Positions 10,713 through 25,657 of a DNA stretch of 64,000 nucleotides are shown here, one piece after another (position 1 is the stretch's first letter; every line of letters begins with the position of its first letter). Both the position numbers and the translations under genes were made by a program. Origin of the DNA: Leptobacterium flavescens (GTDB lineage: Bacteria; Bacteroidota; Bacteroidia; Flavobacteriales; Flavobacteriaceae); the NCBI RefSeq assembly GCF_010671605.1, contig NZ_JAABOO010000001.1, positions 620,001-684,000 on the forward strand, read 5' to 3'. The notes beneath the pieces are model-generated. The model ran no database searches. It saw nothing but the letters and a program-made list of their open reading frames with translations, and was not told the origin of the DNA.

Positions 10713-11726
10713 TTGATCATTCAAGAAAATATATCGCTTAAGGCCTTTAATACTTTTGGCATCGATGTAAAAGCCAGGTATTTTACAGAGGTTACTACTC
10801 TGGAAGATCTGAAAGCAGTTCTGACCCAAAAGGAACATCCGGATAAATTTATCCTGGGTGGTGGTAGCAATATGCTTCTAACCCGTAACATTGATGCGCT
10901 TGTGGTTTATATTAACCTCAAGGGGATAGAAGTCATTTCCAGTACGGAGGAAGAGGTAGATATAGCTGTCAGAGCGGGAGAAAACTGGCATGAATTTGTT
11001 TGCTGGTGTATAGAAAACAATTACGGAGGACTGGAAAACCTTTCCCTTATCCCCGGAAATGTGGGCACTGCTCCCATTCAGAACATCGGAGCTTACGGAG
11101 TAGAGCTTAAGGATGTGTTTATTTCCTGTCATGCCTGGCATAAAGAAAATGCAGAAGAGCAGGTATTTTCACTGGAAGATTGCAAATTCGGGTACAGGGA
11201 TTCTGTTTTTAAGAATGAACTCAAGGGAAAATATATAATTACACAGGTTAATTTCCGTCTGAGCAGAAAAGATCACAAGCTGAATACCTCTTATGGAGCT
11301 ATACAACAGCATTTGGAGGATTCAAATATAAACTCCCCTACTATCCGGGATGTTTCAGAAGCCGTGATCGCTATCAGGAGGAGCAAACTTCCGGATCCTA
11401 AAGAAATAGGTAATAGCGGTAGTTTTTTCAAGAATCCGGTAATTTCCCGGCTTAAATTCGATAGTTTACTGGAAAAATACCCAAATATGCCGAGTTACAG
11501 GATCTCAGATACGGAGATCAAGGTTCCGGCCGGATGGCTCATAGAACAATGTGGATTTAAGGGTAAACGCTTCGGAGATGCGGGTATACACGAACGCCAG
11601 GCACTTGTACTGGTAAATCACGGCAATGCCAGCGGGAAGGAAATATGGCAATTAGCCACCGAGATCCGCGCCACCGTAAAAGATACTTTCGATATTGATA
11701 TTGAGCCCGAGGTAAATGTCATTTAA
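10713..11726 (+). CDS. murB: UDP-N-acetylenolpyruvoylglucosamine reductase
   Basis: Reduces UDP-GlcNAc-enolpyruvate to UDP-MurNAc with NADPH and FAD, the second committed step of peptidoglycan synthesis. FAD-contact motifs are ILGGGSNMLLT (45-55) and PGNVGTAPIQNIGAYGVE. The catalytic serine is in NSGSFFKNP and the C-terminal glutamate in EPEVNVI. At 337 residues it is the E. coli-like type I form. The start is TTG, 6 bases after the aminotransferase stop: no ATG or GTG exists in frame before the conserved NTFGID motif, so TTG is the only plausible start. Translational coupling may compensate for the weak start. Confidence 0.94.
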   Translation: MIIQENISLKAFNTFGIDVKARYFTEVTTLEDLKAVLTQKEHPDKFILGGGSNMLLTRNIDALVVYINLKGIEVISSTEEEVDIAVRAGENWHEFVCWCIENNYGGLENLSLIPGNVGTAPIQNIGAYGVELKDVFISCHAWHKENAEEQVFSLEDCKFGYRDSVFKNELKGKYIITQVNFRLSRKDHKLNTSYGAIQQHLEDSNINSPTIRDVSEAVIAIRRSKLPDPKEIGNSGSFFKNPVISRLKFDSLLEKYPNMPSYRISDTEIKVPAGWLIEQCGFKGKRFGDAGIHERQALVLVNHGNASGKEIWQLATEIRATVKDTFDIDIEPEVNVI

Positions 11727-11751
11727 AAGATAATTCCATCAGCTTAAAGAA

Positions 11752-11912
11752 TAAAAAAAACCCCCATCTCAAAAGATGAGGGTTTTTCGTCCCAAACTTA
11801 ACTAACCTAAACTAACCGCTATTACTTCGGTAACTAAACAGTCATCTCACGGATTGCTCCGCTATTTGCCCCAACAACTGTTTATCGTAATAGCAGAAGT
11901 TCCTTATTTTAA
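11752..11912 (-). ncRNA. Candidate structured small RNA, possibly 6S-like
   Basis: The 410-base gap between murB and the sigma factor holds nested complementary arms: 11816-11825 with 11887-11896, then 11835-11842 with 11877-11884, then the small hairpin 11850-11861. A second short hairpin (11822-11833) competes with the outer stem. At 11817/11895 the plus strand has a C-A mismatch but the minus strand has G.U, and the inner loop reads GCAA (a GNRA tetraloop) on the minus strand. The terminator at 11753-11787 is also better on the minus strand. The 5' end is a guess. The two-stem layout recalls 6S RNA; this is a hypothesis. Confidence 0.42.
11753..11787 (-). terminator. Bidirectional terminator between murB and the candidate RNA
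   Basis: CCCCCATC (11761-11768) pairs with GATGAGGG (11775-11782), flanked by eight A and five T. The single C-A mismatch on the plus strand becomes G.U on the minus strand, where eight T follow. It may end murB too, but is stronger for minus-strand transcription. Confidence 0.75.
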
Positions 11913-11930
11913 TCAGTCAAAGCGACATAG

Positions 11931-12136
11931 ATATATGGATACTATTACTTACTTAACTTAACAATATTTCAAAATGAACTTCGTTCTTATCACAGCTTTT
12001 ACTAAAACTTTTTCTTTTTCGCTGTTTTAATTTTTTAATTAATAAATTTGAATGTTTTTCGTTACAAGTATGTACGTCTGGTATTAAACTTTTGGACGTG
12101 CTTATCATCATAAATTTTTGTTAATCGTATTTTTTT
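11931..12136. other. Gene-free A/T-rich stretch before the ECF sigma gene
   Basis: Holds the upstream region of the sigma factor. ACGTC (12071-12075) and GACGT (12094-12098) form a short inverted repeat about 40 bases before the start codon, which may be an operator or part of an autoregulated promoter. No open reading frame and no clear TAnnTTTG box were seen. Confidence 0.35.
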
Positions 12137-12697
12137 ATGGCTGAATTACTGGAAAAACATATTATCCAGCTTTTAAGGGATCAGGACGAAAAAGGAATGA
12201 GCCTGTTATACGAGTACTATGGAGACACGCTTTTCGGGGTGGCCTTAAAGGTTACCAAGGATGAAGACCTCGCCAAAGATGTACTCCAGGAGAGTCTTAT
12301 TAAGGTCTGGAGAAAAATAAATAGCTACGATCCTAAAAAAGCCAAACTCTTTACCTGGCTGTTCAGGATCACACGAAATACAGCCATCGATAAAATAAGA
12401 AGTGTCAACACTAAAAGTGAGCAGGAAATCCAAGTTGAAGTTTCTAACGTATATAGTGTAGGGGTTAATAGCATAAGGCCCGAACACCTAGACGTAAAAC
12501 AGCATATTGATTCGCTTGATGAAAAATATCAGGTAGTGCTTGATGCGCTGTTTTTTAAGGGGATGACCCAGCAAGAGGCCAGTGAGGCTTTAGATATGCC
12601 CCTGGGAACTGTCAAGTCGAGATTAAAAATAGGCTTGAGAGAACTAAGAAAGATTTTTAATGCACCTATCGTGCTATTATTAATGTTTTGGATATGA
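12137..12697 (+). CDS. ECF RNA polymerase sigma factor
   Basis: A 186-residue sigma-70 family member of the extracytoplasmic function type. Region 2 is clear (LAKDVLQESLIKVWRKI..., then FTWLFRITRNTAIDKIR at about 73-89), and region 4 shows the helix-turn-helix MTQQEASEALDMPLGTVKSRL near the C-terminus. No zinc-binding or extra domain. Its stop codon overlaps the start of the following RskA-like anti-sigma gene (ATGA), the standard arrangement for a sigma factor and its own anti-sigma. The regulon is unknown; autoregulation from the long upstream region is likely for this type. Confidence 0.92.
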   Translation: MAELLEKHIIQLLRDQDEKGMSLLYEYYGDTLFGVALKVTKDEDLAKDVLQESLIKVWRKINSYDPKKAKLFTWLFRITRNTAIDKIRSVNTKSEQEIQVEVSNVYSVGVNSIRPEHLDVKQHIDSLDEKYQVVLDALFFKGMTQQEASEALDMPLGTVKSRLKIGLRELRKIFNAPIVLLLMFWI

Positions 12698-13467
12698 AAG
12701 ATAATGTAAAAATATTTTTAGAGAGCGATCTACTCGAGAAATATCTGATCGGCTCGACTACCGAAGAAGAAAGTATTCAGGTAGAGCATTATATTTCTAA
12801 ATATCCTGATGTGAGCAGGCAATATGAAGAATTACAGGATAATTTGGAAAATTATGCAAGATCTTTTTCCGTATCTGCACCACAGGAAGTTAAGGAACAA
12901 GTCCTTCAGGCTATAAACAAAAAAGCTACCAGTCACAGAATACATTGGTTTTCGGTGGCAGCAAGTGTGGCAGCTATCGTTTTCTGTACCACTACCATTA
13001 TGTTATGGTTACAGAATAATCTGTTGCTTGAAGAAAATTCTATGGTCTCTACCGAGATCAGGAACCTTAAGGAAGATGTACTTAGTACAAATACCAAATT
13101 AGAGGATATTAAAGATCAGTTTGTAGTCCTTAATAATCCCGAAACCAGGAAATATGTATTAAGAGGAAATCAAAGAGCAAAAAACCTTAGAACGGTTGCC
13201 TATATCAATCCCGTAGAAAGATTGTCTATGATTGATGTGGTTTCTCTTCCCGAACTACCTGAAGAACAGGTATATCAAATGTGGGCAGAAGTAGACGGAG
13301 TTATGATAAATTTAGGTGTCCTTAAAAAGAGGAATGAAGAAAAACTTATTTCTATTCCATTTAAGGAAAACGCCTCAGGTTACAATATTACGATAGAACC
13401 CAAAGGCGGTAATGAACAGGCTACAGCTGAAAATGTAGTAGCTAATATTTCATTTGAACAACAATAA
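12694..13467 (+). CDS. RskA-like anti-sigma factor
   Basis: Single-pass membrane protein expected to hold the upstream sigma factor inactive until an envelope signal arrives. The cytoplasmic N-terminus (FLESDLLEKYLIGSTTEEES...) is the anti-sigma helical domain. One membrane segment follows (IHWFSVAASVAAIVFCTTTIMLWL, about 88-110), then a coiled coil (NSMVSTEIRNLKEDVLSTNTKLEDI) and a periplasmic RskA domain (LPELPEEQVYQMWAEVDGVMINLGVL). I place the start at the ATG that overlaps the sigma stop codon (ATGA); a TTG two codons earlier is possible but less likely. Length is 257 residues. The zinc-binding HxxxCxxC motif of ZAS anti-sigmas is absent. Confidence 0.88.
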   Translation: MKDNVKIFLESDLLEKYLIGSTTEEESIQVEHYISKYPDVSRQYEELQDNLENYARSFSVSAPQEVKEQVLQAINKKATSHRIHWFSVAASVAAIVFCTTTIMLWLQNNLLLEENSMVSTEIRNLKEDVLSTNTKLEDIKDQFVVLNNPETRKYVLRGNQRAKNLRTVAYINPVERLSMIDVVSLPELPEEQVYQMWAEVDGVMINLGVLKKRNEEKLISIPFKENASGYNITIEPKGGNEQATAENVVANISFEQQ

Positions 13468-25348: not shown

Positions 25349-25657
25349 AGAAATTTAAACCAGAAGTAACCGGCATTTTACCCTCTTATTAGGGCAATTT
25401 GTACCTTCTTTTGGTTTTCAAAATAGCTTTCGCTTTTGTCTGGGCGTAAACAAAAAAATCATTTTTCGATGTAATGAAATCCAAAGTAAATCGTCTTACC
25501 GTATATAAGATAAAGGACAATCCGCATAATGCGTCTATATATTTTCACTACTCGCCCTTTGCTTCACGGCAAAGGGTTTTTTTATGGAACCTTCCGAAAG
25601 AGGTATTATCTTATAACTAATTTGTAATTTTAACTTGTTAAAGCGGACTGATATAAC
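25349..25657. other. Gap between KMO and the AraC gene with an orphan terminator
   Basis: No recognised gene. It holds a terminator (25555-25583) that no annotated plus-strand gene could use, and an open frame of 48 codons from ATG 25474 to TAA 25618-25620 that runs through that hairpin. A one-mismatch -7 box, TAGCTTTC, is at 25424-25431. The stretch may make a short plus-strand RNA of about 150 nt or hold a decayed gene. Confidence 0.4.
25555..25583 (+). terminator. Orphan terminator
   Basis: CCCTTTGC (25555-25562) pairs perfectly with GCAAAGGG (25569-25576), followed by seven T. No T-run exists on the other strand, so it works in the plus direction. Confidence 0.8.

Follow-up and report, generated by a model that had tools for sequence, protein, structure and literature searches.

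A predicted ECF-sigma-controlled small RNA between murB and a sigma/RskA gene pair in Leptobacterium flavescens, with a possible fasciclin counterpart in related Flavobacteriaceae

Sigma factors activate transcription, and sigma-dependent small RNAs supply the repressing arm of the response. In enteric bacteria, this non-coding side of an ECF sigma response is provided by MicA and RybB. FoxI and FoxJ of Fusobacterium nucleatum are Sigma-E-dependent small RNAs that repress a porin (PMC11005410). The ECF-type motif SM6 of Flavobacterium psychrophilum has CGT as its -10 box; under its control stand a sigma/anti-sigma operon, T9SS genes and the small RNA Rfp11 (PMC9723704). In mycobacteria, SigK-RskA governs the genes mpt83 and mpt70, whose M. 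kansasii counterparts bear a fasciclin-domain annotation (PMC9861118).

The RNA described here, from Leptobacterium flavescens, can be set beside each of these systems. Like FoxI and FoxJ, it would serve an ECF sigma response as its non-coding arm, a likeness drawn from role (PMC11005410); unlike them, and unlike MicA and RybB, it and the sigma gene stand head to head. Its promoter motif and SM6, the latter taken from its description, both contain a CGT box; Rfp11, likewise compared by description, is a structured and conserved small RNA under an ECF CGT-box motif, but it starts at 182564, a long way from the sigma operon listed in that work (2057098) (PMC9723704). FopS and GibS of Bacteroides also carry an unpaired seed stretch right before the terminator, whereas the RNA here has an extra stem domain, belongs to a genome in which we found no RRM_1 protein, and shows weak Rfam likeness only (PMC11697453). 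With the mycobacterial system it would share an RskA-type anti-sigma factor and fasciclin genes under the sigma factor, but the part of that work drawn on here mentions no small RNA (PMC9861118). 6S-Flavo (RF01685) is another Bacteroidota small RNA with a long stem; it has a separate locus in the genome and its model is unmatched at the RNA here. We found no report of an RNA at the murB-sigma locus in the literature searched, which did not extend to the supplement of PMC9723704, where an equivalent may be listed.

The locus lies in a 64-kb stretch of the genome, hereafter the window, to which positions without a contig name refer. The gap is bracketed by the stop of murB at 11726 and the start of an ECF sigma factor gene at 12137. 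The murB gene (10713-11726, plus strand; MurB_C, 106.2 bits) is convergent with the RNA, and the sigma gene (12137-12697, plus strand; Sigma70_r2 and r4) is divergent from it and followed by an RskA-type anti-sigma gene (12688-13467, plus strand; PF10099 RskA_C, 53.1 bits). On the minus strand the gap holds, from 5' to 3', a promoter motif, a leader, nested stems, a 26-nt G/U-rich linker and a terminator. The motif, TCCAAA-N14-CGTACAT, is of ECF type; it occupies 12096-12070, which places it 41-67 nt before the start codon of the sigma gene, and faces the RNA, a layout that is the same in the sister genome R38 introduced below. A scan for sigma-70-type promoters returned none. Placing the 5' end from the motif gives a predicted transcript of about 310 nt (11753-12062, minus strand). 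Its conserved leader, CAAATTTATTAATTAAA (12034-12050), is identical at 17/17 positions in the window, R38, an uncultured Flavobacteriaceae locus (L020) and Spongiivirga citrea (L029). The linker, TAGTTTAGGTTAGTTAAGTTTGGGAC (11789-11814), is the proposed seed and is identical in R38 at 26/26 positions; the intrinsic terminator called by a terminator scan (11753-11787) may also serve murB from the opposite strand. As closed ATG frames reach three codons at most here and five in R38 (GTG and TTG starts uncounted), the unit is very likely non-coding. A search of a phage collection gave no match, and a phage origin was rejected on that ground.

Our best reading, held with slightly better than even confidence and built on sequence, is that of an ECF-sigma-controlled small RNA that gives the sigma/RskA response its non-coding arm and most likely acts by base pairing through its linker. 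The RNA would be transcribed on the minus strand from the ECF-type promoter, most likely read by the head-to-head ECF sigma factor. Once the RskA-type anti-sigma factor releases sigma, RNA polymerase would start near 12062, read through the leader, the nested stems and the G/U-rich linker, and stop at the terminator beside murB. The stems may stabilise the RNA and expose the unpaired linker, which would then pair with target mRNAs and repress them. The promoter motif, the terminator, the absence of an ORF, the compensatory stems, the conserved linker and the linkage to the sigma gene are the elements of this scheme that the sequence supports; transcription, recognition by this sigma factor, linker pairing and repression are the steps that we infer.

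That the element folds, and does so on the minus strand, is clear. The minus-strand fold reaches -60.6 kcal/mol with a z-score of -5.9 and is equalled by 0/200 shuffles; the plus strand is also equalled by 0/200, at z -3.1, and once the terminator is removed the minus strand keeps z -3.7 (0/300 shuffles) versus -1.6 (22/300) for the plus strand. The details given by an initial annotation of this DNA are borne out at this level: the nested minus-strand stems exist, with an outer stem of 11887-11896 paired to 11816-11825 and an inner stem of 12 pairs (11873-11884 with 11835-11846), a helix length found in 3/1000 shuffles; the outer-stem mismatch 11895/11817 becomes a U.G pair and the terminator-stem mismatch 11764/11779 a G.U pair on that strand; the apical hairpin (11849-11862) bears a GCAA loop; and the terminator, described there as stronger on the minus strand, is called on that strand only. 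The same annotation took 11752-11912 as the RNA, but this interval is only the 3' part of a predicted transcript whose promoter motif lies at 12096-12070. It also proposed that a competing hairpin at 11822-11833 could swap with the outer stem. The hairpin is present, but in R38 it has lost a C-G pair whereas every pair of the outer stem is retained, so the switch is unsupported. Nor do we claim a pairing between leader and linker that appears in the long fold, because shuffled sequences can pair as well (22 and 23/500 shuffles here, 24 to 330/500 in six relatives).

The two-stem layout had further been likened to 6S RNA, an identity that the Rfam searches do not sustain. At gathering scores, Rfam finds no 6S RNA in the window; the sole match there is an S15-Flavobacteria ribosomal protein leader (RF03161, 38834-38897, minus strand, 77.7 bits). 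With E up to 10, the interval 11400-12300 returns 17 weak matches, from which the 6S families are absent. These likenesses (BTnc049, rnk leader, BTnc201, PyrR and others) all stay below gathering and mostly end in the terminator: BTnc049 scores 29.6 bits against a gathering score of 81.9, and BTnc201 27.2 bits against 105. We take BTnc201 to be GibS, and both to be RNAs of the FopS/GibS type. The RNA reaches the gathering score of no family in Rfam 15; ECF-dependent small RNAs are a known kind. The genome's own single 6S-Flavo RNA scores 103 bits (cut-off 85) on another contig (C2:1006202-1006309), and among 20 more sources, namely this 6S locus (L001) and 19 related loci, it is again the sole match. 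An RNA of 6S type that binds RNA polymerase would account for a nested long stem with internal loops, a single copy found and a terminator; with the 6S-Flavo RNA located elsewhere and no 6S match up to E 10 in the gap, we regard it as very improbable. The linker, the ECF-type motif and the fasciclin exchange discussed below do not point to 6S either. The element is very probably not 6S RNA.

Within the genus, the comparison is with one other genome, equal to that of Flavobacteriaceae bacterium R38 over the tested stretch (loci L003 and L014). Its gap carries all the parts: motif, leader, stems, linker and terminator. The outer stem keeps 10/10 pairs, two of them with both partners substituted and two with one. 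A shuffle control, passed by 135/500, is uninformative with two sequences; all pairs were kept in 22215/200000 trials of a transitions-only null and in 424/200000 trials allowing any substitution. The R38 inner stem has 10 pairs (119/1000 shuffles by length, 40/1000 by score), and the inner stems of the two species have no pair-by-pair alignment. The minimum-energy fold of R38 lacks the outer stem, and its body alone does not fold significantly (z -1.3, 29/300 shuffles). Two sequences make too small a set for genuine covariation analysis. The terminator sequences differ between the two species, and the best conserved part is the linker together with the internal-loop strand GTTACCGAA (11826-11834), which is identical in R38.

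A wider view came from the same slot in related genomes: the best 80 of 136 relatives found by a search with the sigma protein, a sample that is uneven and holds many Maribacter. Gaps were compared in the 73 of these 80 where murB precedes the sigma gene by less than about 420 nt; seven were left out, two with murB unmatched (L020, L076) and five with longer gaps (L029, L045, L046, L066, L071), and two of the loci, L049 and L050, are places on one contig with the same gap. The 73 fall into 45 long gaps (at least 180 nt) and 28 short ones. In this sample from the best 80 of 136, the pattern TCYAAA-N12-15-CGTA occurs on the minus strand in 37/45 long gaps and 0/28 short ones, against 0/73 gaps on the plus strand and 3/3650 shuffled gaps; by eye, near matches are present in six of the eight long gaps that lack it. 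A minus-strand terminator near the murB end follows the same partition (40/45 long, 0/28 short). Motif and terminator occur together in 36/45 long gaps and are both missing from 4/45 (L021, L077, L084 and L088), counts that suggest that the unit is present or missing mostly as a whole. Mangrovimonas is split in this respect, with the unit in L049 and L052 and short gaps in L047 and L048.

A covariance model built from the two genus members gave 21 non-training matches with E up to 0.53 in 67 sources; in 17 cases the match was on the minus strand and in the interval that precedes the sigma gene. Run on 299 genomes, it returned 17 places with E up to 0.1: the two training places, one further instance of the same slot (L104), two that resemble RNA units (L101, L106), two gene 3' ends (L110, L112), and ten in or beside coding sequence that look like chance. 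The units at L101 (position 1478) and L106 (1484), both on the plus strand, comprise, in this order, the promoter motif, a TTTATTTAGTTTAGTTAGGG linker and a terminator, and stand behind a gene whose product presumably resembles MazG. Among the 19 Maribacter/Cellulophaga-type sequences, nine were aligned after near duplicates had been dropped. Their hairpin before the linker has 94.2% of its cells paired versus 80.5% in shuffled alignments (0/500 as high), and 6/10 pairs are changed on both sides. Compensatory changes, which the initial annotation had named as supporting evidence, are thus seen both in the R38 outer stem and in this hairpin.

Away from the stems, a tail core GGTTAGTT-N2-GTT is common to all eight sequences chosen for comparison, and many Maribacter have GGTTGGTT instead. 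Most Gelidibacter, Psychroserpens and Winogradskyella loci keep the promoter motif with another body, and by eye the G/U linker is missing. Structured-looking bodies of other kinds, with a near or exact promoter motif, also occupy the long murB-sigma gaps of Sinomicrobium (L019, L021) and long-gap loci among L049-L085 (Gelidibacter, Psychroserpens, Winogradskyella and others); one of them is a long stem around TTGATTAATAGC. They are possibly diverged forms of the same RNA.

Base pairing via the linker is the weakest step of the proposed mechanism. Across 649 start regions, called in 864 kb with a simple ORF rule, the complementarity of the linker was no better than that of 60 shuffled linkers; with no excess of this kind, a general target rule for the linker was dropped. 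One site, at the gene starting at C1:1304122 (-21.0 kcal/mol), was set aside in turn since it is not kept in R38. No partner of Hfq or RbpB-like type was found: searches of the genome returned no Hfq protein and no RRM_1 (PF00076) protein, of which a control Bacteroides genome has one. The linker and terminator could instead be a general 3'-end signal for termination or RNA stability, the function of the RNA residing in the stems or the leader. Similar linkers do stand before terminators after coding genes (L095 in this genome, L110 and L112 in others), and a similar linker-terminator follows two fasciclin genes; but the linker pattern, with up to three mismatches, occurs at only six places in 4.2 Mb, one of them the RNA locus, versus seven in a backward control. 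We consider a general 3'-end signal unlikely.

Does the promoter motif mark a wider regulon? Exact matches to TCCAAA-N12-15-CGTANAT number nine in this genome versus five in a backward control, and ten versus five in R38, so that the genome-wide count hardly exceeds the control. The nine comprise two intergenic matches (the murB-sigma locus and a unit at 25480 of the window), six inside genes on either strand, and one (L117) at the end of an upstream gene just before a small lipoprotein-type gene. In R38, four matches lie inside genes and six are intergenic: the murB-sigma locus, L165 (the ortholog of the 25480 unit), L174, where the motif precedes a fasciclin gene (Pfam Fasciclin, 138.7 bits), L168 and L169, where it precedes genes that by eye are of lipoprotein type, and L172.

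The place at 25480-25583 (plus strand) is a second RNA-like unit, in which the motif (25480-25506) is followed by GGACAATCCGCATAATGCGTCTATATATTTTCACTACT (25515-25552), identical at 38/38 positions in R38, and then by a terminator; searched against Rfam up to E 1 it gives one weak CRISPR-repeat match (16.3 bits versus 39), and it probably belongs to the same regulon as a further small RNA. L172 of R38, away from the sigma gene, assembles within about 130 nt the motif (at 1501, reverse complement), a TTTAGTTAGTTTGGTT linker and a terminator, and appears to be a further linker RNA. Loci L118 and L170, one in each genus genome, share a motif of spacing 14 (at 1501) that overlaps the start of an opposite-strand gene and lies upstream of another gene, a possible further target promoter.

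The motif also recurs, with one mismatch (TCCAAG-N13-CGTATAT, 12429-12454, plus strand), inside the sigma gene itself. Among the best 80 of 136 relatives, 73/80 have TCYAAA-N12-15-CGTA within the sigma gene, R38 being among the seven without an exact match; controls gave 0 for the gene read backward and 0 on the other strand. The codons at this place are frozen. In the 45 of these 80 sequences that read N-V-Y at the motif (the window included, L050 left out), asparagine is AAC in 45/45 versus 108/371 elsewhere in the same sigma genes, valine GTA in 45/45 versus 90/340, and tyrosine TAT in 45/45 versus 177/316; still within the best 80 of 136, isoleucine before Q at the motif is ATC in 20/20 versus 120/668 elsewhere, and in 34 other sequences, which read D-V-Y, the site is written as GACGTATAT in 34/34. 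These sequences are related and do not count as independent events. The frozen synonymous codons suggest a constraint at the DNA level and thereby support the motif as functional; it may act as an internal promoter that serves the anti-sigma gene.

The slot of the RNA is not always filled by an RNA. In L020 and in Spongiivirga citrea (L029), it holds a fasciclin gene divergent from the sigma gene, preceded by the same motif and the leader CAAATTTATTAATTAAA and followed by TTTAGGTTAGTTTAGTT and a terminator; in L020, murB is unmatched within the stretch examined. A third locus, L046, has a fasciclin gene in the slot without the leader or the tail. Fasciclin-like genes thus occur in 3/80 sigma loci among the best 80 of 136 relatives, and the Pfam domain is found in 3/3. 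The same unit would then hold a fasciclin gene, not an RNA body, in at least two relatives. The only fasciclin match of the L. flavescens genome lies elsewhere, with motif and linker missing by eye. A literature search combining fasciclin with anti-sigma and ECF factors in flavobacteria found no paper.

Such a distribution could mean decay: the promoter and the 3' end would have outlasted a lost surface-protein gene, what lies between being a relic or a structured 3' UTR with no function in trans. Fasciclin genes fill the slot in these three loci, two of them sharing the leader and carrying a closely similar tail, and the genome's sole fasciclin match, elsewhere, lacks both by eye. However, the stems of the body still pair in both groups tested, the linker and the GTTACCGAA strand are the parts best conserved in R38, and motif and terminator mostly come and go jointly, all of which speak against a relic; we judge decay improbable. 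There is also a bolder reading, one we advance tentatively and with more doubt than belief. Flavobacteriaceae might have one sigma-controlled unit with two interchangeable fillings, a fasciclin gene or a structured regulatory RNA, between a retained promoter, leader, linker and terminator, the RNA having arisen from the mRNA by loss of its coding part; together with the other motif-linker-terminator units and the RNA at 25480, it might belong to a group of small RNAs that one ECF sigma factor controls and that work without Hfq or RRM proteins.

Few studies have dealt with the regulatory RNAs of Flavobacteriaceae, and the RNA here is one without an Rfam match. A small RNA beside its own sigma and anti-sigma genes would offer a compact and testable model for the repressing arm of an ECF stress response in a genome that yielded no Hfq on searching. 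The fasciclin exchange, if true, would clearly exemplify the conversion of an mRNA into a regulatory RNA, or the opposite change, within fixed transcription signals.
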